Below, in pieces: positions 15,217 to 25,209 of a DNA stretch of 35,610 bases. The DNA comes from Candidatus Latescibacterota bacterium (lineage in GTDB: Bacteria > Latescibacterota > UBA2968 > UBA8231), in assembly GCA_022819745.1 (NCBI GenBank), contig JAJEGS010000042.1:1-35610 (forward strand), given 5' to 3'. How positions within the stretch are numbered: the first letter of the stretch is position 1; each line of letters opens with the position of its first letter. The translations under genes and the position numbers were made by a program. Under the pieces are notes generated by a model that worked only from the letters and a program-made list of their open reading frames with translations, was not told the DNA's origin and did not search any database.

Positions 15217-15276
15217 TTCCAGGCTAAAACACTACTGAGGCCCGTTGAGCGGGCCGATTTGGAAAGGAGGCGCGTC

Positions 15277-17367
15277 GTGTTATTTCGCACTCGAACGCTT
15301 CTTCCTATAGGACTTATTGCCATTTCTACATTTGTCCAATGCAGCCAACCGACGGCACCGCCACAGCCCAAGTACATCGGCGATCTGCCGGTATTGCAAT
15401 CCCACGGCAAGTTGCGCGTCATCGTCCCCTCAGAGCCGATTGCCCATATACCCAAGCAGGCGGAGCCGGTGACGATTGACTACGACCTCGCCCGCGACTT
15501 GGCCGAGGAATTCAAGTTGGAACTGATGCTGGTAAAGGCCGAAAATTATGCCCAGATGGTCCAGAAGTTGCTGGAAGGCGAAGGCGATATCGTCGCTGCG
15601 AGCCTGACGATTACAGCAGCGCGGCAGGAGCAAGTGGCGTTTTCTGTGCCGTATCTCTACGTGGATGAATATCTGATCACTTCAGCCAGCGACGGCCTGC
15701 CGACGACGATTGAGGACTTGGCCGGAATGACAATCGGCGTCCGGCGCTCTAGCTCGCACTACGAGACTCTATTGGATATTCAGCAACAGGTGCCGTCGTT
15801 GCAGATTCACACCGCGTCGGAGAAGCTCGGCCTCGAGTACCTCATCGACGGCATCGTCCGCAGCGAATACCAAGCGACCGTAGCCGACGAGCACTTGTGG
15901 AGGGGGGTGGAAAGCTACTACGACAACATGGTTACGCCGCTAATAGTGGCCGAAAACCGCCCGATCGCCCTGATGATGCGGCCCGACGATGTACAGCTCA
16001 AGACCAGGGTCGATGAATACCTGCTCGCCCAGCAGTTTACGCGCCAGTCCCAGCAGGCTTTCACCGACGATTTGCCCGGCTTAAAAGAGCGTCGGCGGTT
16101 GCGCATGATCACCCGCAATAATGCGCTGACCTATTTTATCCACCGCGGCCGGCAGGTGGGCTTTGAATACGAGCTTATCAAGGAATTTGCCGACCGGCAC
16201 GATCTGCGGCTCGATATCGTTATCCCGGACAGCCACGCCGACCTGCTGTCGTATTTGAACGAGGGCAAAGGCGATGTGGTGGCTGCGGCGATGACTATTA
16301 CCGAGGAGCGACGAGCGCAGGCGGCGTTTACCTTGCCCTATAACGAAGTAGATGAGCTGGTGGTCGTGCGCGCCGATGAGGATTCGATTGCCAGCCTTGA
16401 GGACTTGGCCGGTCGCACGGTTCACGTGCGCGCTAGCTCTTCTTTTTACACCACTCTGGTGGCCCTTGAGGATTCCATAGCGGGTTTGCAGGTCGTGCCG
16501 CTGCCCGACGACCTCGAAACCGAAGACATCCTAGCAGGCGTCGAGGCGGGTCGCTACGACATTACCTTATGCGACTCCAATCTGCTCGACGTGGAACTCG
16601 CCTACGGGCGTGCGCTCAAGGCGGCCTTCAGCATCAAGCCAACGGTCTTGGGATGGGCAGTGCGCCGGGACAATCCGGCTTTGCTAGCGGCGCTCAATCA
16701 GTATGTACAAGAGGAAAAAGGCGGCTTGTTTTTTAATATGATGAAGAAGCGGTACTTCAAAAACAAGCGCACCATCACTAGGGCTAAGGATTCGCTGCGG
16801 GTCGATTTGAGCGGTCGCCTGTCGCCCTACGATGAGCTGGTAAAAAAATACGCCCAGCAGTACGGCCAGGACTGGCGGTTGATTACCGCGCAGATGTACC
16901 AGGAATCCAAGTTCGATCCCCAGGCCACTAGCTGGGTCGGTGCGCGCGGGCTTATGCAGATCATGCCGGTCACCGGGCGCGAGTTGGGATTTACCGATCT
17001 GCACGACCCCGAAGAGAATATCCACGCGGGAGTAAAGTACCTGTCCCAACTGGTCAACCGCTTTGACTCGAACATACCCATCGAGGAACGGACGCGTTTT
17101 GCGCTAGCCGCCTACAATGTCGGCTATGGGCATGTCCTCGACGCGCGTCGCTTGGCGCGCGAAAAGGGGTGGAATCCCGACCGGTGGTTTGGCCACGTGG
17201 AACAGGCGATGCGGCTGCTTGCCAAGCCGGTGTATCACAAACGGGCGCGCTACGGCTTCTGTCGCTGCGGCCAGCCCGTGCATTACGTGGGCAACATTCA
17301 GAATATGTACGACGCCTATGTCGGGATGCTGACTATGGCGAGGGACCCGGACCCAGAGCGTCTATGA
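15277..17367 (+). CDS. MltF-like membrane-bound lytic transglycosylase with two solute-binding domains
   Basis: The start is GTG 15277, 6 bases after AAGGAGG; a TTG at 15259 overlaps that site and is unlikely. The 696-residue product has a lipoprotein signal (lipobox FVQC). Two SBP_bac_3 domains follow in tandem, about residues 40-260 and 270-490; both contain matching segments (LLEGEGDIVAASLTIT and LNEGKGDVVAAAMTIT; LAGMTIGVRRSSS and LAGRTVHVRASSS). The C-terminal SLT domain (about 515-690) has the catalytic Glu543 in AQMYQESKFDP, GARGLMQIMP and ALAAYNVGYGHV. It should cleave murein glycan strands to anhydromuropeptides. E. coli MltF has one binding domain; two are unusual. A leader with a terminator precedes it. 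Confidence 0.9.
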   Translation: MLFRTRTLLPIGLIAISTFVQCSQPTAPPQPKYIGDLPVLQSHGKLRVIVPSEPIAHIPKQAEPVTIDYDLARDLAEEFKLELMLVKAENYAQMVQKLLEGEGDIVAASLTITAARQEQVAFSVPYLYVDEYLITSASDGLPTTIEDLAGMTIGVRRSSSHYETLLDIQQQVPSLQIHTASEKLGLEYLIDGIVRSEYQATVADEHLWRGVESYYDNMVTPLIVAENRPIALMMRPDDVQLKTRVDEYLLAQQFTRQSQQAFTDDLPGLKERRRLRMITRNNALTYFIHRGRQVGFEYELIKEFADRHDLRLDIVIPDSHADLLSYLNEGKGDVVAAAMTITEERRAQAAFTLPYNEVDELVVVRADEDSIASLEDLAGRTVHVRASSSFYTTLVALEDSIAGLQVVPLPDDLETEDILAGVEAGRYDITLCDSNLLDVELAYGRALKAAFSIKPTVLGWAVRRDNPALLAALNQYVQEEKGGLFFNMMKKRYFKNKRTITRAKDSLRVDLSGRLSPYDELVKKYAQQYGQDWRLITAQMYQESKFDPQATSWVGARGLMQIMPVTGRELGFTDLHDPEENIHAGVKYLSQLVNRFDSNIPIEERTRFALAAYNVGYGHVLDARRLAREKGWNPDRWFGHVEQAMRLLAKPVYHKRARYGFCRCGQPVHYVGNIQNMYDAYVGMLTMARDPDPERL

Positions 17368-17569
17368 GCTGGTGGTCTGCTGCTTGGTTTCGCAGATGGA
17401 GATAGTAGCAGTAGCAAGCTGATCCTCGTACAGTCGGTATCTTGACGCTGATAGCACTAGCCGTCAGGTGGTTTACTATTAGATCCCACCCTTGTTGTAT
17501 TTCCTCTCTTTCACCAGCTTAGGTGAATCTGACTTCCATTTTACATAGCAGAGGAGCATAGAAGGCGGG

Positions 17570-19582
17570 ATGGCCGAGCCTAAGCTGCGATTCCCGGTGC
17601 GGAAGTTAGCGGCGCTCAGGCCGGGTTATCTGGCGTTGCTGTTTGTCGTGCTGGCCTTGGTGTTGGGGGCCTTTGCGCTCTACGGCCTGCGGCAGGCGCA
17701 GCAATCGACCTTGGAGACACTCGAACGCGGGGCGCGATCGCTGGCCGAAGCGGTTTCGCGCGCTGAGGAGAACGTGCTCCGCGCCGAAGGCGACATGGAA
17801 GAACTGGTCGAGGAACGGCTGTTAGACAATGCCCGGCTGCTGGCCGAGTTGGGGCTGACACAGTCGTTTTCCGACACGCTCTTGGCGCGGATTGCAGCGG
17901 ACAACGCCCTCGACCAAGTCGATGTACTCGACACGGCCGGCAGGCTGGTGGCGTCGAGTGGCGTCGTCGATACGGAAGAGTTGGTGGAGTGGCAGCGGGA
18001 GTTGGAGCCGCTGCTGGTAGGCGTGGAGGAGGCGCTGCTGTTCGAGTTAGACGACCAGCTCTTTGCCGTGGCCGTGGCCATACGGGGTGGAGGCGCGGTG
18101 ATCGTGCGAGTTGCGGCCGAGCGGCTGTTACACCTGCGGATTCGCTCTGGCGCTGGTCGGCTTATCCAAGAGATCGGCACCAACCAAGACATTGTGTACA
18201 TGGCCTTGCAGGATACGCTGGGCCTGTTGGCCGCTTCGCACGATCTGGTCTTACTCGAAAGCATTGTTGGCGACGCATTTCTCGAGATGGCCCTGACGCG
18301 CAATGCGACCGCTTCGCGCCTCGTCGAGTTTGAGGGCGAGGAGATATTTGAGGTCGTCATCCCCTTCGCGCCCCAAGGGATGACGCTGGGGCTTTTGCGC
18401 ATTGGCCTCTCGCTCGATGAACTGCGGGCACAGGAGCAGCGCGGGCGGCTGCAAGTGGCGTTGCTGGTGCTCCTGCTCCTGATATTGGGTGCCGTGGGTA
18501 CTGGGGCGGTAATTGTGCGGCAAAACTTGGCCCTGCTCAGCGATGCGTACGCGAACATACAGACCTATAGCAGCCGCATCTTGGCGCAGATGACGGACGC
18601 GGTGGTGGCCACGGATCCGGCTGGGACCATTGAAGTCTTCAACCAAGCGGCCGAGGCATTATTCGGAGTCGAAGGTGAGCAGGTGCGGGGGCAGCGCCTG
18701 CGCGATGTATGGCCGCACGAGGCCGTGGGTAGGGCCTTGGCCGGCGAGGAACTGGTGGGCTTAGCCTGTCGTTTTACGGATGCTCGGGGCCGCGAGCGAA
18801 CTCTGTCGCTGTCGAGCGCACAGGTGTACAATGCCAGCGACGAGGTGGAGACCATAGTCTTGGTGATTCAGGATCTGAGCGAGAAGGTGGCGCTGGAGGC
18901 CGATCTCCGGCGACGAGACCGCTTGGCCTCCATGGGGGCACTGGCCTCGGGCGTGGCCCACGAAGTGCGCAATCCACTCAACGCCATCAGTGTGATCGTG
19001 CAGCGGCTGCGGCGCGAGTTTACTCCGCGCGCAGACGAGGGCGAATACCGCCAGTTAACCCAAATCGTCGGTGGCGAGGTCGAGCGGGTCAATCGCATCA
19101 TTCAGCAGTTTCTAGAATTGGCCCGCCCGCGCGCGCTTGCCAAGACTCGTGTGGCGCTGGCGTCGATCTTGGAGCGGGCGGCTGAGACGGTCGAGCCGCA
19201 AATGCTCGCCGCTGGGCTGCGGCTGGAGCGAGATTTTGCCGGTGTAGGCGAAGCTCAAGTCGATGCGGACCAGCTACATCAGGCGCTGCTCAACTTGCTG
19301 GTCAATGCAGTGGAAGCTACAGACGAGGGGCACATCCGGCTAGCGACCCGGTCGCTGCCCGAGGGCTGGGTGGAGATCGGCGTGGCCGATACCGGCCCGG
19401 GCATTCCGGCTGAAAATGTCGAGCGGATATTCGACCTGTATTTTACAACCAAGGCCGCAGGGGCGGGGCTGGGTTTGAGCTTGGTGCACCGCATCGTCGC
19501 AGAGCACGGGGGGCGCGTTGAAGTGCAGAGTGATCGCGGCGCGGGCGCGCGATTTGTCATTCTACTGCCGAGGGGATTTTGA
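17570..19582 (+). CDS. Membrane sensor histidine kinase (PAS-HisKA-HATPase, NtrB/ZraS-like)
   Basis: The 670-residue product has a first membrane span at about 22-42, an extracytoplasmic sensor of about 250 residues beginning with a coiled-coil-like acidic stretch, and a second span at about 296-316. A PAS domain (about 335-440, with MTDAVVATDPAGTIEVFNQA) precedes HisKA, whose phospho-acceptor is His464 in ASGVAHEVRNPLNAI. The HATPase domain has NLLVNAVEA (N box), VADTGPGIP (G1) and GAGLGLSLVHRIV (G2). The response regulator gene starts one base after its stop. With a sigma54-type partner it belongs to the NtrB/ZraS/AtoS class. The stimulus is unknown; the adjacent LTxxQ gene suggests metal or envelope stress. 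Confidence 0.92.
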   Translation: MAEPKLRFPVRKLAALRPGYLALLFVVLALVLGAFALYGLRQAQQSTLETLERGARSLAEAVSRAEENVLRAEGDMEELVEERLLDNARLLAELGLTQSFSDTLLARIAADNALDQVDVLDTAGRLVASSGVVDTEELVEWQRELEPLLVGVEEALLFELDDQLFAVAVAIRGGGAVIVRVAAERLLHLRIRSGAGRLIQEIGTNQDIVYMALQDTLGLLAASHDLVLLESIVGDAFLEMALTRNATASRLVEFEGEEIFEVVIPFAPQGMTLGLLRIGLSLDELRAQEQRGRLQVALLVLLLLILGAVGTGAVIVRQNLALLSDAYANIQTYSSRILAQMTDAVVATDPAGTIEVFNQAAEALFGVEGEQVRGQRLRDVWPHEAVGRALAGEELVGLACRFTDARGRERTLSLSSAQVYNASDEVETIVLVIQDLSEKVALEADLRRRDRLASMGALASGVAHEVRNPLNAISVIVQRLRREFTPRADEGEYRQLTQIVGGEVERVNRIIQQFLELARPRALAKTRVALASILERAAETVEPQMLAAGLRLERDFAGVGEAQVDADQLHQALLNLLVNAVEATDEGHIRLATRSLPEGWVEIGVADTGPGIPAENVERIFDLYFTTKAAGAGLGLSLVHRIVAEHGGRVEVQSDRGAGARFVILLPRGF

Positions 19583-19583
19583 A

Positions 19584-20930
19584 ATGGCTGGAGAGACCAT
19601 TCTGATAATCGACGACGAAGCCGCACAGCGCGAGGCCGTGGGCGGCTATTTGCGCAAGCGGGGTTTTGTGGTCTTGCAGGCCGCTAACGGACGAGAGGGT
19701 TTGGCCTTATTGCAGGGCCAAGTGGTGGATCTGATCATCACGGATTTGCGGATGCCGGAGTTGGACGGGATGGGCGTGCTCGCTGCCGCCCGTGAGATCA
19801 ATCCTGCTATCGGGGTAGTGATGGCGACGGCTTTCGGAACGGTCGATGGAGCCGTTGACGCCATGCAGGAAGGGGCCTTCTACTACCTGCAAAAGCCGAT
19901 TGATCTCGATGTGCTCGACCGGATCGTCGATCGCGCCTTGGAGCAGCGGCATCGCATCTCGGAAAACGAACTGCTCCGCGAGCAAATCGGGGAGCGGGTG
20001 TCGTTTGGCGGCATTATGGGCTGCTCGCCAGCGATAGAAGAGGCCCTCAACGTGGTGGCGCGGGCCGCACCGAGCCGAGCGACTGTGCTGCTGCGCGGCG
20101 AGTCGGGCACTGGCAAGGAGCTGATGGCGCGTGCAGTACACGAAGCAAGTCCTCGCGCGGATCATCCCTTTGTAGCCGTCAACTGCGCCGCCCTCAACAA
20201 AGGCTTGATCGAGAGCGAGTTGTTCGGGCACGAAAAAGGTGCCTTTACCGGGGCGGACGCCCGGCGCGCTGGCCGCTTTGAGCAGGCCGACGGCGGCACT
20301 CTGTTTCTCGACGAATTGGCCGAAATTCCCCTCGATGTGCAGGTCAAACTTTTGCGCGTCTTGCAGGAGCGCAAGATCGAGCGCGTTGGTAGCGGCATTG
20401 AGATCGAGGTTGATGTGCGGCTGATCGGGGCGACGAATCGCGATTTGGAGGCGCTGGTCGCGCAAGGAGCGTTCCGCGAGGATCTGTTTTACCGGCTCAA
20501 TGTCGTCGCGGTGGAGTTGCCGCCATTGCGACAGCGCAAGAGCGATATTCCGCTGCTGGTGGACCACTTTCTCGCCCGCTACGCCGAGGAAAACGGCAAG
20601 GCTATTGGCGAGGTTTCCAAAGAGGCGTTGGAACTGCTGACGCGCTACGCATATCCCGGCAATGTGCGCGAGTTGCAAAACATCGTCGAGCGCGCGGTGG
20701 TCATGTCTCGCGGTGAGGTGGTGACGCGGGCGGACTTGCCGGTCGAAGTGCAACAAGCAGCACCTGCGCCGGTTGCGGATACGTTGTCCGCGCAAGTGGA
20801 GGAATTGGAAAAGACGGCCATTGCCCAAGCCTTAGAGCGGGCCGGCGGCGTCCAGAGCCGAGCCGCCGAATTGCTGGGTCTGACCGAGCGCAACCTGCGC
20901 TACAAGCTGAAGAAGTACGGGCTGAAATAG
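19584..20930 (+). CDS. Sigma54-dependent response regulator (NtrC/ZraR family)
   Basis: The 448-residue product has three domains. The receiver (1-120) has the acidic pair Asp10-Asp11, phospho-acceptor Asp54 in LIITDLRMPEL, Thr82 and Lys104. The AAA+ domain (about 142-375) has Walker A GESGTGKE (172-179), the sigma54-contacting loop GAFTGA (219-224) and Walker B GGTLFLDE (237-244). The Fis-type helix-turn-helix is at about 405-448 (GGVQSRAAELLGLTERNLRYKL). Every residue needed for sigma54 activation is present. The start is ATG 19584 after AGGGG, one base past the kinase stop; an earlier in-frame ATG lies inside the kinase gene. Likely targets are the palindromes upstream of the sigma54 promoter at 24051-24067. 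Confidence 0.95.
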   Translation: MAGETILIIDDEAAQREAVGGYLRKRGFVVLQAANGREGLALLQGQVVDLIITDLRMPELDGMGVLAAAREINPAIGVVMATAFGTVDGAVDAMQEGAFYYLQKPIDLDVLDRIVDRALEQRHRISENELLREQIGERVSFGGIMGCSPAIEEALNVVARAAPSRATVLLRGESGTGKELMARAVHEASPRADHPFVAVNCAALNKGLIESELFGHEKGAFTGADARRAGRFEQADGGTLFLDELAEIPLDVQVKLLRVLQERKIERVGSGIEIEVDVRLIGATNRDLEALVAQGAFREDLFYRLNVVAVELPPLRQRKSDIPLLVDHFLARYAEENGKAIGEVSKEALELLTRYAYPGNVRELQNIVERAVVMSRGEVVTRADLPVEVQQAAPAPVADTLSAQVEELEKTAIAQALERAGGVQSRAAELLGLTERNLRYKLKKYGLK

Positions 20931-21021: not shown

Positions 21022-22200
21022 TCAGAAACCGAATTGGATGCCTGCGGAATAGGCGTGGGCGTCTGCGTCGTAGAAAGCGTCGTTGGACGCGACCGAGCGG
21101 TAGAGCCACTCCAATTCGAGGGCCATTTCTCGGAACGGGGTGTTGTCTAGGTAGAATGCGCGCGCTAGCCCTAGGCGCGCAGTATGGCGCGTTTCCGCAG
21201 TGGATTCCCCGGTGAGAACTCCGGCGAGATCGTAGGATGGCCTCTGGCTGTAGAGGCGGCTTTCGCGCTGGAAAGAGGCCGCTAGCTCGCAGTTTAACGG
21301 AGCCAAGTACTTCAGGGCAGCACTCCATTGATCCCCGCCATAGCTGTAGCGGTCTTCAAAGAGTTCGTCTGGATCGTACCAGTATGCCTGCGACGTCGGC
21401 GGCGCTTTGTAGAATTCGTCTGGATTGTACCAGTGCGCCTTGGATTTGGTCTTAGTCTTGTCGAACTCGTCGAAAATTTTGTTTGGATCGTGCCAGAACC
21501 AATCGGCATCGCGGCTCTGGCCGGTGAGGATGTCTTGGTGATGCCACGCTAGCTGTAAGCCGAGGTTGGGACCGAGGGATTGGGCGGCCTTGAGGCGGGT
21601 GCCCCACAGAAGTGGGTTGCGGCTGGGTTGGGTGGTTTCTTGCAGGTAGGATTTAAGGCCCAACTCGCCGTTTAGCTGCAAGGTGGTGCGGGTGGGCAGG
21701 TAGTGGGTTAGCTGAGCGTCGAGGTGCTGTTCGCGGTAGCTGTAGTCCGCGGCGTTGAGAAAGTTTTGGTAGCTGAAGGTATAGTCGAGGCGGGAGATCA
21801 ACTCTGGGTGCAGATACGGCTCGAAGCTGGCGAAGGCTCGGCCAGCGGCAAAGTCGCGGTAGGAGTAAAGCGGGCGATCCAAGCGCAGGCTCAGGTTGGC
21901 ACCGGCGAAGAATAGACCCGCCGCACCCACGGGGCACGCATAGCTCGCACCCAAGCTGTGCAAATGGTTGAACAGGTCGGCGTTTTCGCTGAATACGTTG
22001 GCGTTGCCCGAATAGTACAAGCTCAAGTCGGTGTCGAACTGGTAGTCGAAGTCGATATAGGCCGACTGCATTAGATCGCTGCGCTGGCTGGCCGTGAGAA
22101 AGACATTGTCTGTATAAGTGGTGTACAGATCGGCGTTAAGCGTGACTTGGGCTTCGGCTGCGGAAATCAGTGCGACTAGGCAGGCGGGTAGGTACTTCAT
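21022..22200 (-). CDS. Predicted outer-membrane beta-barrel protein
   Basis: The 392-residue product has a Sec signal (MKYLPACLVALISAAEAQ) and then many alternating, aromatic-rich strands (VTLNADLYTTYTDNVFLT, LSLYYSGNANVFSE), ending in HAYSAGIQFGF with the terminal Phe typical of barrels recognised by the BAM complex. A region around residues 228-275 carries three versions of an aromatic motif of type WY/H-DP-D/N-E/K-L/F-F/Y, with charged spacers, probably in a surface loop. Its ATG overlaps the stop of the upstream calcium-loop gene (ATGA), so translation is coupled. No specific porin or transporter family is recognised. Confidence 0.65.
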   Translation of the reverse strand: MKYLPACLVALISAAEAQVTLNADLYTTYTDNVFLTASQRSDLMQSAYIDFDYQFDTDLSLYYSGNANVFSENADLFNHLHSLGASYACPVGAAGLFFAGANLSLRLDRPLYSYRDFAAGRAFASFEPYLHPELISRLDYTFSYQNFLNAADYSYREQHLDAQLTHYLPTRTTLQLNGELGLKSYLQETTQPSRNPLLWGTRLKAAQSLGPNLGLQLAWHHQDILTGQSRDADWFWHDPNKIFDEFDKTKTKSKAHWYNPDEFYKAPPTSQAYWYDPDELFEDRYSYGGDQWSAALKYLAPLNCELAASFQRESRLYSQRPSYDLAGVLTGESTAETRHTARLGLARAFYLDNTPFREMALELEWLYRSVASNDAFYDADAHAYSAGIQFGF

Positions 22201-22895
22201 TTGCGTTCCTTCTTCTTGGGCTGTTTGGGATCGTCTTTTTTGAGGTGCGGGGGTACGCGGCGTTTTAGACGTTTTGGGGCGAGGTCTCGTACGCGTTCGT
22301 CCGGGTGTCTTAGGAGGCGGCGCAACAGGCGGGCGTCGTCGATGCCGTCGCCGTCCTCGTCCAAGAAGAAGTCCATCCGCCGTTTTTGAGCGTGCAGCCG
22401 CTGGTGCAGCCGCTTGAGCGGGTCGTGCATGCCGTCGCCATCGGCGTCGCGGAATTGCTTGACTTGGTGCCGGCGCTCTTCAAAGACGCGGCCAAAGCGA
22501 TAGCCGAGCAGCCCGTGCGGGCCGTACTTTGCACCGGTGATGTCGTTTACGTGGTCGCCATTGAAATCGACGACATTGTCGATGAAGCCGTCGTCGTCCG
22601 CGTCGCGGAAGCGGCCGTCGAGGTCGTTTACGCCGTCGCCGTCTTGGTCGCGGAAGCGGTCGTTTACGCCGTCTTCGTCTTCGTCTAAAAAAGGGAAGTG
22701 GTGGGGATAAGGCTGGCCGTTGAGGTCGTTCACGCCGTCGCCGTCTTGGTCGCGGAAGCGGTCGTTTACGCCGTCGCGGTCGGCATCGACATAGCCGACA
22801 ATGGGCGCAGGGGCCGCGTCCTCCTCTGACGGACCGGATTGGGCGTGGACAGAACAGGCCAGCAGGGCGCTGACCGCGATAGCGATGACGACCAT
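22197..22895 (-). CDS. Exported protein with eight DxDxDG calcium-loop motifs
   Basis: The 232-residue product has a Sec signal ending near SVHAQ and then a run of EF-hand/thrombospondin-type-3-like loops. I count eight: DADRDGVND, DQDGDGVND, DEDEDGVND, DQDGDGVND, DADDDGFID, DFNGDHVND, DADGDGMHD and DEDGDGIDD. The first six are separated by short spacers; the last two are separated by Arg/Lys/His-rich helical segments, and the C-terminus is strongly basic (KKDDPKQPKKKERK). Calcium or another divalent cation is the expected ligand. It is the middle gene of a three-gene operon, between an LTxxQ protein and a barrel protein that it overlaps by four bases. Confidence 0.75.
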   Translation of the reverse strand: MVVIAIAVSALLACSVHAQSGPSEEDAAPAPIVGYVDADRDGVNDRFRDQDGDGVNDLNGQPYPHHFPFLDEDEDGVNDRFRDQDGDGVNDLDGRFRDADDDGFIDNVVDFNGDHVNDITGAKYGPHGLLGYRFGRVFEERRHQVKQFRDADGDGMHDPLKRLHQRLHAQKRRMDFFLDEDGDGIDDARLLRRLLRHPDERVRDLAPKRLKRRVPPHLKKDDPKQPKKKERK

Positions 22896-22955: not shown

Positions 22956-23987
22956 TTACCGATCGAAAGAGTCCTTGACACGGCCCCAGCTCGTCTCCTC
23001 AGCCGAGGTAGTGGCTTTGCCGGCGGCCGCGTCCGTGCTCTCCTCCGCGTCCGTGCTTAGCCCACACCCGTACCATCCGCGTCCGTGCTTGCCGAACTCG
23101 TACCATCCGAGCCCGCGCCATCCGAGCCCGTGCTTGCCGAACCCGTTCTCTTCGAAGGCGGCAATTTGGTCTTCGGTTAGGATGGTCGCCAAGCTGACGA
23201 GGAACTGGTATCTGGTCAGCCCTTGCTCTTGAAGGGCTTCGATTTGGGCTTGCTGATCTTCGGTCAAGCCGAGTGGGTTCACGATGCCTTCGAAGATGGC
23301 GCGTTGCTCTGCGGTTAAGAGGGCCTCAAAGTCGGTGCGGTATTGGTCGCTAAGGGCTTGCCGCTGCTCGTTGAGGGTTTCTTGAAGGGCTTCGATTTGG
23401 GCCAACTGGTCTAAGGTCAAGCCGAGTTGGAGTAGTGTGCTCAGGGAGGTGTATCCGCCGCGCTTGGTGTATCCGTTGAGCCCTCGCCATCCGAGCCCGT
23501 GCTTGCCGAATCCGTACTCATCAAGGGCGGCAAGCCCGGCAATTTGGTCTTCGGTTAGGATGGTCGCCAAGTTGATGAGGAACTGGTATCTGGTCAGCCC
23601 TTGCTCTTGGAGGGCTTCGATTTGGGCCTGTTGGTCTTCGGTCAAGCCGAGTGGGTTCACGATGCCTTCGAAGATGGCGCGTTGCTCTTCGGTTAGGAGG
23701 GCCTCAAAGTCGGTGCGGTATTGGTCGCTAAGGGCCTGCCGCTGCTCGTTGAGGGTTTCTTGAAGGGCTTCGATTTGGGCCAACTGGTCTAAGGTCAAGC
23801 CGAGTTGGACGCTCAGGGAGGTGTATCCGCCGCGCTTGGTGTATCCGCTGTCCTTGGTGTCCCCGCGCTTGGTGTACCAGCCGTCCTTGGCGTGCCCACC
23901 CTTGCCGCCCCGGCCTCGTGCCGAGGTGTCCATAGCCGCTGCAGCTACCAATAGCAGCGCGGCTGCGATGACCCATGTTGTCTTCAT
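22956..23987 (-). CDS. LTxxQ (Spy/CpxP/ZraP-like) periplasmic protein with internal duplication
   Basis: The 343-residue product starts with a Sec signal (MKTTWVIAAALLLVAAAAM) after a strong AGGAGG. It then has two nearly identical units of about 126 residues. Each holds two LTxxQ motifs (LTLDQLAQIEAL and LTEDQQAQIEAL), a long helical segment with QRQALSDQYRTDFEALL, and a third related LTEDQ near the end. Between and after the units lie Gly/Lys/His/Trp-rich linkers (GFGKHGLGWRGL, EFGKHGRGWYGCG). Spy, CpxP and ZraP of this family are about 140-170 residues with two LTxxQ motifs and act as stress-induced periplasmic chaperones or zinc binders. The His/Trp-rich linkers could add metal binding. 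First gene of a sigma54-promoter operon. Confidence 0.8.
   Translation of the reverse strand: MKTTWVIAAALLLVAAAAMDTSARGRGGKGGHAKDGWYTKRGDTKDSGYTKRGGYTSLSVQLGLTLDQLAQIEALQETLNEQRQALSDQYRTDFEALLTEEQRAIFEGIVNPLGLTEDQQAQIEALQEQGLTRYQFLINLATILTEDQIAGLAALDEYGFGKHGLGWRGLNGYTKRGGYTSLSTLLQLGLTLDQLAQIEALQETLNEQRQALSDQYRTDFEALLTAEQRAIFEGIVNPLGLTEDQQAQIEALQEQGLTRYQFLVSLATILTEDQIAAFEENGFGKHGLGWRGLGWYEFGKHGRGWYGCGLSTDAEESTDAAAGKATTSAEETSWGRVKDSFDR
23160..23808. repeat. Tandem 378-base in-gene direct repeat
   Basis: The segments 23160-23430 and 23538-23808 are almost identical and lie at a constant offset of 378 bases, that is 126 codons. They differ by scattered substitutions and preserve the frame. The intervening part encodes the Gly/Lys/His/Trp-rich linker. 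Confidence 0.9.
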
Positions 23988-24050
23988 GATGCTCCTCCTA
24001 TGGGATGCGTGTGATGCTCAACGTGCATTGTTGAGTCGCACTGTATTAGA

Positions 24051-24067
24051 GCAACATGTGTGCCACG
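24051..24067 (-). promoter_or_regulatory. Sigma54 (-24/-12) promoter of the LTxxQ operon
   Basis: Read on the minus strand the sequence is GTGGCACACATGTTGCT: TGGCAC, then the invariant spacing, then TTGC. GG is at 24064-24063 and GC at 24052-24051. It matches the TGGCAC-N5-TTGC consensus at every key base. Transcription should start near 24039, giving a leader of about 50 bases before the ATG at 23987. A sigma54 activator gene lies 3 kb away in the same window. Confidence 0.8.
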
Positions 24068-24141
24068 TTAGAATCTTTTTGCAAAAATGCCGTTTTACAG
24101 TGGCAAAACGTCGCATCGTTGCAAAGACTCGGTACGACGAA

Positions 24142-24159
24142 TTCGACCATTTGGTCGAA
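24142..24159. promoter_or_regulatory. Proximal palindrome, probable response-regulator enhancer site
   Basis: TTCGACCATTTGGTCGAA has perfect 8-base arms around TT. Its centre is about 111 bases upstream of the predicted sigma54 start, the normal position for an NtrC-type activator site. The same CGACCA-NN-TGGTCG element recurs 90 bases further on. Confidence 0.65.
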
Positions 24160-24231
24160 GCAGGAAGTTGTTAATATGCCATAACTTTTTGTTTTTATTT
24201 GATCTATAATTCATTCGACCAAAGTCAGAAA

Positions 24232-24249
24232 TTCGACCAAATGGTCGCT
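24232..24249. promoter_or_regulatory. Distal palindrome, probable response-regulator enhancer site
   Basis: TTCGACCAAATGGTCGCT contains CGACCA-AA-TGGTCG, the reverse orientation of the proximal site, centred about 201 bases upstream of the sigma54 start. A half-site ATTCGACCAAA lies at 24213-24223. A TATAAT box on the plus strand (24205-24210, weak -35) falls between the sites. Confidence 0.6.
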
Positions 24250-24270
24250 AGCTAGACAAAGCCCACCAGA

Positions 24271-24883
24271 TCAAAAACAGGCGCACCATCGCCAAGGCAA
24301 AGGACTCGCTGCGGGTCGATTTGAGTGGCCGCCTGTCGCCCTATGATAAGTTGATAAAAAAATACGCTCGCCAGTACGGCCAAGACTGGCGGTTGATTAC
24401 CGCGCAGATGTACCAGGAATCCAAATTTGATCCCGAGGCCACGAGCTGGGTCGGCGCGCGCGGGCTGATGCAGATCATGCCGGTCACTGGACTCGAACTG
24501 GGATTTACCGATCTGCACGATCCTGAAGAGAATATCCACGCGGGGGTAAAGTACCTGTCCCAACTGGTCAACCGCTTCGATCCGCAAATTCCCATTGAGG
24601 AACGGACGCGCCTTGCGCTGGCTGCCTACAATGTTGGCTATGGGCACGTACTCGATGCGCGCCGCTTGGCTCGTGAGAAAGGGTGGAATCCCGACAAGTG
24701 GTTTGGCCACGTGGAACAGGCGATGCGGCTGCTCGCCAAGCCGGCCTATCACAAACGGTCGCGCTACGGCTTCTGTCGCTGCGGCCAGCCCGTGCACTAC
24801 GTGGGCAACATTCAGAATATGTACGACGCCTATGTCGGGATGCTGACGATGGCGAGGGCATCGAACCCAGAGCGTCTCTGAGC
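24271..24883 (+). repeat. Diverged duplicate of the 3' third of the lytic transglycosylase gene
   Basis: This segment aligns with 16757-17368 without gaps that break the frame. Similarity begins abruptly at TCAAAAACA (24271 against 16757), 22 bases after the distal palindrome, and ends just past the stop codon (GAGCGTCT then TGAGCT). Confidence 0.9.
24321..24881 (+). CDS. Stand-alone SLT lytic transglycosylase domain, truncated paralogue
   Basis: From a TTG at 24321 the frame encodes 186 residues corresponding to the SLT domain of the 15277-17367 gene, with the catalytic Glu kept in AQMYQESKFDP and with GARGLMQIMP and ALAAYNVGYGHV intact. Over the aligned 186 positions I count 14 residue replacements against about 38 silent changes, so the copy has been under protein-level selection. 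It lacks a signal peptide, both binding domains and any good ribosome binding site; the frame is closed by TAG at 24249-24251 and has no ATG before 24321. It may be a recently decayed gene whose 5' part was lost, or a domain expressed from the TATAAT at 24205. Confidence 0.5.
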   Translation: MSGRLSPYDKLIKKYARQYGQDWRLITAQMYQESKFDPEATSWVGARGLMQIMPVTGLELGFTDLHDPEENIHAGVKYLSQLVNRFDPQIPIEERTRLALAAYNVGYGHVLDARRLAREKGWNPDKWFGHVEQAMRLLAKPAYHKRSRYGFCRCGQPVHYVGNIQNMYDAYVGMLTMARASNPERL

Positions 24884-24908
24884 TAGTAGGCTGGGACGCG
24901 GAGGTTTC

Positions 24909-24938
24909 TTGACAGGATGCACGGCCGACGGGCATATT
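24909..24938 (+). promoter_or_regulatory. Sigma70 promoter, possibly giving a leaderless mRNA
   Basis: TTGACA at 24909-24914 is a perfect -35 box; CATATT at 24933-24938 follows after 18 bases (TATTAT at 24935-24940 would need 20). Transcription would begin at or next to the ATG at 24946, leaving no room for a ribosome binding site. Confidence 0.5.
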
Positions 24939-24945
24939 ATCCGCT

Positions 24946-25209
24946 ATGAACGCACCTACTTTCGACACGCTCCACGCTGCTAAACGCCTCCGCGAGTCCG
25001 GCTTTGAAGACGCCCAAGCCGAGGCAGTGGTCGCCACCGTCAACGATGCCATTACCGGCGGCGTTGCTTCCAAGGCAGACCTCGCCGAGCTACGCGCCGA
25101 ATTCAAAAGCGACCTCGCCGAATTCAAAAGCGACATCTACAAGCAGTTGTGGATTGTCGCCGCTTTTATCGTCAGCGCCGTCGTTGCGGCGATCAAATTC
25201 CTTCCTTAA
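24946..25209 (+). CDS. Small coiled-coil protein with C-terminal membrane anchor (DUF1640-like)
   Basis: The 87-residue product starts MNAPTFDTLHAAKRLRESGF and has the pattern of DUF1640/CCDC90-like small proteins: FDTL, a helix with ESGFEDAQAEAVV, then a coiled coil containing KADLAELRAEF and a direct repeat of EFKSDLA/EFKSDIY, and finally one membrane span (about 68-84, LWIVAAFIVSAVVAAIKF). It probably forms membrane-anchored oligomers; the bacterial role is not established. No Shine-Dalgarno precedes the ATG. It converges on the TRAP permease gene, with stops 14 bases apart. Confidence 0.7.
   Translation: MNAPTFDTLHAAKRLRESGFEDAQAEAVVATVNDAITGGVASKADLAELRAEFKSDLAEFKSDIYKQLWIVAAFIVSAVVAAIKFLP

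Follow-up and report, generated by a model that had tools for sequence, protein, structure and literature searches.

The sigma54-type promoter and paired palindromes found ahead of an operon for three envelope proteins are, judging from their conservation among relatives, very probably the target of the adjoining two-component regulator. We consider it highly probable that this regulator would activate the operon from the upstream sites through sigma54, as part of an old family of regulators in the FCB (Fibrobacteres-Chlorobi-Bacteroidetes) group. The finding is real and bigger than first noted, and the TTCGAC-N6-GTCGAA site, the regulator and the output genes travel together across genera and phyla. 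To our knowledge, little is known of sigma54 two-component systems outside the Proteobacteria; here the sequences of several mostly uncultured phyla let regulator, DNA site and targets be read side by side, giving a concrete handle on genes so far without any name.

Promoter, sites and genes of the window

The window, by which we mean the whole 35,610-nucleotide stretch of DNA analysed, carries the following features.

15259-17367, convergent to the operon: MltF-like protein with two solute-binding domains and a transglycosylase domain
17570-19582, plus strand: sensor histidine kinase (PAS, HisKA, HATPase) with two transmembrane helices around a double-Cache-like periplasmic domain
19584-20930, plus strand: sigma54 response regulator (receiver, AAA+ with GAFTGA, Fis-type helix-turn-helix), its tail ending LGLTERNLRYKLKKYGLK
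21022-22200, minus strand: operon gene 3, outer-membrane barrel (AlphaFold2 model, pLDDT 85.5, 16 long strands)
22197-22895, minus strand: operon gene 2, secreted calcium-loop protein with eight DxDxDGxxD-type loops (FxDxDGDGxND repeats)
22956-23987, minus strand: operon gene 1, secreted LTxxQ protein of 343 aa (Pfam PF07813, 33.4 bits for the whole protein, above the cut-off of 24.3)
about 24040, minus strand: predicted transcription start
24065-24051, minus strand: -24/-12 sigma54 promoter TGGCACACATGTTGC, the one exact TGGCAC-N5-TTGC in the window
24144-24157, no strand: proximal palindrome CGACCATTTGGTCG, exact CGACCANNTGGTCG match
24142-24159, no strand: extended form of the proximal site, TTCGACCATTTGGTCGAA, kept in genomes G005, G002 and G008
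24214-24221, no strand: half-site TTCGACCA, its arm 18 bp from the matching arm of the distal site
24234-24247, no strand: distal palindrome CGACCAAATGGTCG, exact CGACCANNTGGTCG match
24232-24247, no strand: distal upstream site TTCGACCAAATGGTCG, kept in G005 and G002, with one base altered in G008

The initial annotation had described a TGGCAC-N5-TTGC promoter upstream of an operon of LTxxQ, calcium-loop and barrel genes, two CGACCA-NN-TGGTCG copies with a half-site nearby, and a histidine kinase and a GAFTGA-bearing response regulator in the same window. Each of these was recovered: the promoter is exact and followed by all three genes, the palindromes are some 110 and 200 bp away from the predicted start, as had been claimed, the half-site is present, and both signalling proteins are there by Pfam and by sequence. 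Both palindromes are exact as described, but the proximal one is longer than had been stated. The promoter match alone is unremarkable, because an order-1 model of the whole window expects 0.11 exact matches against the one seen, and the pattern with up to two mismatches is no commoner in the window (33) than in shuffles (40.8). Unlike the promoter match, the palindrome pair lies far beyond chance; the window holds no exact copies of CGACCANNTGGTCG (CGACCA-NN-TGGTCG) other than the proximal and distal ones, and the same type of model expects 0.003 per whole window and 2.5e-5 per 300 bp.

The distal palindrome could instead serve mainly as a terminator of the upstream dctP-dctM genes with no regulatory part, as in G005 it starts 29 bp past the stop codon of dctM, with AATTTTT after it, and both window palindromes fold as short RNA hairpins (z of -1.86 for the distal and -3.16 for the proximal), as any palindrome would. 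We regard this as highly improbable, given that the stems have just 5-7 pairs, that the proximal copy and the sites of other phyla do not stand behind dctM, and that a scan reported neither palindrome, only the hairpins 24110-24091 and 24282-24261, with a shuffle mean of 1.6 and so no excess. The first of these hairpins (CGTTTTGCC-ACTG-TAAAACG, then GCATTTTTGC, at 24091-24110) sits between the proximal site and the promoter and has a similar form in G005, G002 and G008; its conservation suggests that it may act as a read-through stop or as another site. Directly behind the distal palindrome, positions 24271-24893 duplicate the end of the MltF-like gene (16757-17379) at 89% identity. Neither G005 nor G002 has this copy, the DNA there leading from the palindrome to dctM, so that about 24271-25205 of the window is an insertion relative to them.

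The LTxxQ protein of the window has ten LTxxQ motifs and an internal tandem duplication, seen in the gene at 23109-23850 as a repeat of about 370 bp with 91.6% identity, and its length varies among relatives (305 aa in G002, 356 aa in G005). The calcium-loop protein matched no family in Pfam or NCBIfam, and for a small Bacteroidota version the best 120 of 159 relatives are all unnamed or hypothetical. Similarly, the 87 barrel homologues among the matches listed are all unnamed or "hypothetical" and without Pfam assignment, no named family being found; Pfam SlipAM was matched by two distant barrel members, one just over the cut-off and one under it, and the window barrel scored a sub-threshold 18.4 against TIGR03016 (PEP-CTERM-associated outer-membrane protein; cut-off 90.85). 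The closest solved folds to the barrel model are AlgE and OprD (Occ) barrels, at TM 0.4-0.5 and about 10% identity, which is a general barrel resemblance and no proof of transport.

The kinase and regulator genes also converge on this operon. In the kinase model (pLDDT 81) a long first helix leads to two PAS-like lobes, after which comes another membrane helix; the sensor region best matches extracellular kinase domains, DctB and double-Cache chemoreceptors in the PDB (best E 4e-7, with TM of only about 0.2-0.4). Pfam sCache_3_2 passes its cut-off in the kinases of loci L199 and L238 and falls below it in the window kinase, and the sensor region can be aligned across phyla in 26 kinases, the other 25 being 26-95% identical to that of the window. 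The regulator exceeds the Pfam cut-offs for PF00072, PF00158 and PF02954 and has the GAFTGA motif; by its domains and the layout of its presumed target promoter it would be classed as an NtrC-type sigma54-dependent response regulator. The rpoN gene was found in 20 of 21 related genomes, the miss being a genome that is 75% complete.

Conservation from close relatives to other phyla

The closest loci are those of G005 and G002, whose regulators are 94% and 97% identical to that of the window; both have the two palindromes at the same 90-bp spacing and an identical TGGCACACATGTTGC, close variants of which occur in G007, G008, G009 and G018. G007, with a regulator 79% identical to the window's, has the sites TTCGACCAAATCGTCGAA and TTCGACCAGGATGTCGAA upstream of promoter TGGCACGCACCTTGC, G009 a single full site upstream of TGGCACGGGGTTTGC, and G018 two TCGACGAnnnCGTCGA sites upstream of TGGCACAACCCTTGC. 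In G016, sites stand ahead of two calcium-loop genes, one of these promoters having just one site, with 59 bp between it and the -24 element. An equivalent of the half-site (an extra GTCGAA) was seen in four of the eight genus promoters compared and is absent in G005, G002, G007 and G009. The first operon gene of G007, G009 and G018 encodes a different, shorter protein, which in G018 scores 17.5 against PF07813 (cut-off 24.3) and in G007 was not recognised as PF07813 by the Pfam scan. In G034 the LTxxQ gene is found alone, behind its own two sites and a lower-scoring promoter, and the barrel is present in 11 of 25 genomes of the window's family.

The locus of G008 has lost most of its kinase, and its regulator retains 279 of 448 residues with the C-terminal part gone; the promoter region keeps one exact palindrome and one altered (CGACCATTCGGTCG). 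Despite the damage, the LTxxQ gene, the promoter and the proximal site are retained, and such retention of a target without an intact regulator would count against a simple regulation story. Additional places resembling the operon front were found in G005 (L139, C1:2449035), with both sites and the promoter and no LTxxQ gene seen behind it, and in G007 (L133, C63:162123), where two sites and a weaker promoter precede a short, broken reading frame that resembles the start and the end (ETSWGRGKGAFGK) of the LTxxQ protein but lacks its repeats; these could be either decaying copies or reduced targets. Between the kinase and regulator genes of G002 (L047, 4360-6831) and G008 (L054, 4307-6064), some 1.8-2.5 kb are inserted at one point, bounded by end repeats of about 25 bp; both inserts encode an AAA_21/AAA_15 ATPase of 550-580 aa, and it is odd to find a same-site insertion in two species.

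For a wider survey a barrel profile (A1, built from eight barrels) was searched over genome contigs, giving 68 places labelled Gemmatimonadetes/Latescibacteria, KSB1, Calditrichota, Ignavibacteria, Bacteroidota, Glassbacteria and a few doubtful ones. The set of 68 loci analysed here is made up of 65 of these 68 plus three loci of G032-G034; L183 (= L194/G037), L187 (G002), L188 (G005) and L194 were left out, and L209 and L240 were counted despite their doubtful labels (an archaeon and Ectothiorhodospiraceae). Loci from Latescibacterota (the phylum in which the window is placed), Bacteroidota, Ignavibacteria, Calditrichota and KSB1 share the kinase, the sigma54 regulator, a DGDG-loop protein, a 16-strand barrel and the sites with a promoter. 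By single-linkage families the barrel is present in 64 loci, the kinase/regulator in 62, the calcium-loop protein in 51 and all three in 47, the next commonest families being found in no more than 19 of the 68. The barrel count is no test, because the loci were found by their barrel, and the other counts are; from these numbers, therefore, the core consists of kinase, regulator, calcium-loop protein and barrel. With the window protein as BLAST query, LTxxQ proteins were recognised in Latescibacterota alone, the Pfam scan being confined to that phylum. The constant outputs are the calcium-loop protein and the barrel, both outside any named family.

Beside the core in Calditrichota, Ignavibacteria and Bacteroidota, genes for DUF2202, DUF4405 and a ferredoxin-type pyridine nucleotide oxidoreductase recur (loci listed for these or for cytochrome neighbours: L253, L222, L221, L226, L228 and L248). 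Multihaem ORFs with at least three CxxCH motifs number 13 and are limited to eight of the 68 loci, L222 and L253 among them, so that multihaem cytochromes are not core, and a reading of the barrel as an electron conduit with such cytochromes was dropped on this count. Kinase, regulator, calcium-loop and barrel genes are also present in L209, labelled Heimdallarchaeota, and L240, labelled Ectothiorhodospiraceae; both are likely to be mis-binned contigs, with transfer as a possible alternative for L240.

Of the 68 loci, 47 have CGAC-N6-GTCG at 45-220 bp upstream of YGGYA-N6-TTG, with 56 such places in all, as compared with 4, 3, 1 and 1 places for four of eleven permuted half-sites searched in the same loci and none for the other seven. 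When a scored promoter was demanded, the counts were 29 against 0-1 for eight controls under a strict setting and 45 against 1-10 under a looser one. The looser YGGYA-N6-TTG pattern was used because searches requiring GC at the -12 end missed TTGA/T promoters; TGGCAC-N5-TTGA/T promoters were seen by eye in Calditrichota and Bacteroidales loci. By group, the arrangement was found in 6 of 8 Latescibacterota loci, 10 of 15 with an HLRSR helix (L212 was assigned here though its helix is unreadable) and 31 of the 45 others. It was not found in 21 of the 68 loci within the DNA covered, some contigs stopping near the operon. Bases beyond the search seed are kept as well, with T before CGAC in 72 and A after GTCG in 66 of 82 sites, the inner A and T being kept in 51 and 52 of 82, and the spacing of neighbouring sites is 22 bp in 13 of 26 pairs.

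These details bear on whether the palindromes are instead operators of another DNA-binding protein, such as a TetR-family repressor, unconnected with the two-component system. The inner CGACCA-nn-TGGTCG does resemble known TetR-family operators, RutR-type sites of that family reading TTGACCAnnTGGTCAA. However, in those 47 loci the sites stand at activator distances from a -24/-12 element and are often paired 22 bp apart; the inner C/G varies (TCGACGAnnnCGTCGA in G018, TCGACAATTTTGTCGA in L230) where TCGAC/GTCGA is constant, and none of the nine gene families found in at least five loci is TetR-like, which makes such a repressor very unlikely.

The regulators themselves point to the two-component system as the partner of the sites. 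Among 62 loci looked at, 59 regulator tails were readable and 57 of these carry the recognition helix [TS]ER[NTH]LR[YS] (43 with Y, 14 with S), from which the tails of paralogues differ. In the regulator tree 56 sequences fall on one side of a branch (support 100/99.9) with 21 sigma54 paralogues on the other, the latter being the best regulator matches in 21 genomes without an orthologue of the system's regulator. The 14 regulators with ERHLRS rather than ER[NTH]LRY belong to loci L196, L202, L203, L206, L209, L213-L215, L218, L221, L222, L224, L234 and L253. In several of these loci the promoter ends in TTGA/TTGT at -12 and the sites diverge more, which offers a natural test of whether helix and site change together.

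Genome-wide distribution of sites and targets

When CGAC-N6-GTCG-N58-88-TGGCA-N6-TTG was searched genome-wide, 18 genomes gave 24 matches at 22 distinct places, and the reversed pattern 4 matches. At 14 of these places the gene that follows, 36-70 bp further on, encodes a small secreted protein with FxDxxGDGxxD loops, and at three it is a DUF2202-type gene 52-59 bp away (two by Pfam, the third by eye), whilst the remaining five have no calcium-loop or DUF2202-type gene behind them, one being at a contig end. In three Bacteroidota genomes a DUF2202-type protein thus forms a second target; a full-text search of open papers found no literature on DUF2202. The 14 home-locus promoters are not independent evidence, because 17 of the 18 genomes had already shown the arrangement. 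Three of the 17 target places are on contigs other than that of the regulator (G042 C95, G047 C50 and G047 C156) and encode the same kind of protein as the home targets; these unlinked promoters and the scarcity of further targets are independent evidence. As a negative control, the 21 genomes whose best regulator match is on the paralogue side gave nine matches in five genomes, none before target-type genes and eight of them inside open frames of more than 300 codons.

In the window's own GC-rich family the search was less specific, and most matches there are due to chance. A slightly shifted pattern gave 23 matches in 16 genomes of that family, eight of which are promoters of the system type; these belong to LTxxQ or calcium-loop genes of G002, G005, G007, G008, G018, G032 and G033, the eighth being in G031, ahead of a gene that starts like a calcium-loop protein before a frame change. 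In an earlier search of the family eight of 20 matches were true promoters or copies of them, and with proportions of 8/23 and 8/20 the site and promoter pattern alone is not specific there. Simpler markers were discarded: CGACCANNTGGTCG by itself occurs 0-14 times per genome in 30 relatives, most off-locus places examined being in frames of at least 100 aa; TCGACSANNTSGTCGA occurs 2-14 times in 18 genomes and is similarly placed; and a loose promoter pattern was too frequent, with 5-32 matches in each of 18 genomes. Site and promoter together are more specific and can be used to seek targets in new genomes, and a laboratory strain would suffice for testing regulator, operator and reporter, with no need to culture the host.

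Proposed mechanism and relation to known systems

In NtrC-class activation a phosphorylated regulator occupies upstream sites, the DNA loops, and ATP-driven opening takes place at the sigma54 polymerase. Applied here, the membrane kinase would phosphorylate the adjoining response regulator, which would bind TTCGAC-N6-GTCGAA sites 75-200 bp upstream and, by DNA looping, activate the LTxxQ/calcium-loop/barrel operon, the promoter at 24051-24065 presumably being driven by sigma54 RNA polymerase. The dedicated output of the regulator family would be the secreted DGDG-loop protein and the outer-membrane barrel, to which a DUF2202 protein or the LTxxQ protein may have been added in some lineages. 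Our best guess for the signal is envelope or metal stress, a disturbance that may be sensed by the double-Cache-like domain, and as to the task we can but guess at a metal-binding surface or envelope coat, aided by a chaperone in Latescibacterota. The recurrence of sensor, regulator, site and unnamed envelope proteins in several phyla makes this look like an old system of envelope control. The further proposal, to which we would give an even chance, is of an old FCB sigma54 switch dedicated almost wholly to one undescribed envelope machine of a secreted, metal- or calcium-binding DGDG-loop protein and a 16-strand outer-membrane barrel, with the LTxxQ chaperone and DUF2202 as accessories of particular lineages; if true, the pair would make up a novel type of system, equipped with a sensor, for buffering metals or forming a coat at the surface or in the periplasm.

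The initial annotation had drawn a parallel with ZraSR-ZraP of E. coli, whose target is a periplasmic LTxxQ-type protein. A membrane kinase, a sigma54 regulator, an LTxxQ target (the gene at 22956-23987, PF07813 being over its cut-off) and few targets are indeed common to both, and the logic of a sigma54 promoter, paired sites and an adjoining two-component system as the likely activator is supported by sequence, but a close kinship with ZraSR is not supported. The targets given for ZraR are zraP, zraSR and mgtA, with ZraR peaks also at zraSR (PMC7657598). By contrast, no likely autoregulatory site was found in the window ahead of its own kinase and regulator genes; the sole CGAC-N6-GTCG near the kinase, at 17310, is inside the MltF-like gene, and no -24/-12-like sequence was found between it and the kinase or before the MltF gene. 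The constant outputs differ too, being a calcium-loop protein and a barrel.

A further rival reading is an ordinary member of the ZraSR-ZraP type, or of PrsKR or AtoSC, with calcium-loop and barrel genes as accidental neighbours. The general logic of a sigma54 regulator beside an LTxxQ protein is the same, and the best NCBIfam matches of the regulator include AtoC, ZraR and PrsR. Against this, every curated cut-off was missed: none of the best 25 models passed for the regulator, which scored 456.3 bits for ZraR (cut-off 760), 509.2 for AtoC (714) and 408.8 for PrsR (TIGR02915; 502.6), and the kinase scored 207 bits for ZraS (479), 287.3 for AtoS (646) and 86.2 for PrsK (TIGR02916; 300). Furthermore, the supposed neighbours are found in 64 (barrel) and 51 (calcium-loop) of 68 loci, the LTxxQ protein was recognised by BLAST in Latescibacterota only, and genome-wide the sites stand ahead of calcium-loop genes. 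Ordinary membership is on these grounds very unlikely, and activation by the system's own regulator through its own sites is the reading we prefer.

No published description of the system was found among the best-ranked full-text literature matches, which covered the main text of open papers. PrsK-PrsR, the two-component pair of the PEP-CTERM/exosortase system, shares with it a sigma54 response regulator serving envelope proteins. In Desulfovibrio vulgaris, which represents another lineage, two-component sigma54 response regulators likewise have small regulons, mostly of one to four operons, with sites derived by comparison (PMC4641369; LTXXQ, ZraR and TTCGAC are absent from its main text). 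The Zra label does not fit as a statement of membership; the system is a sigma54 two-component regulon that has an operator of its own and an envelope output so far undescribed.
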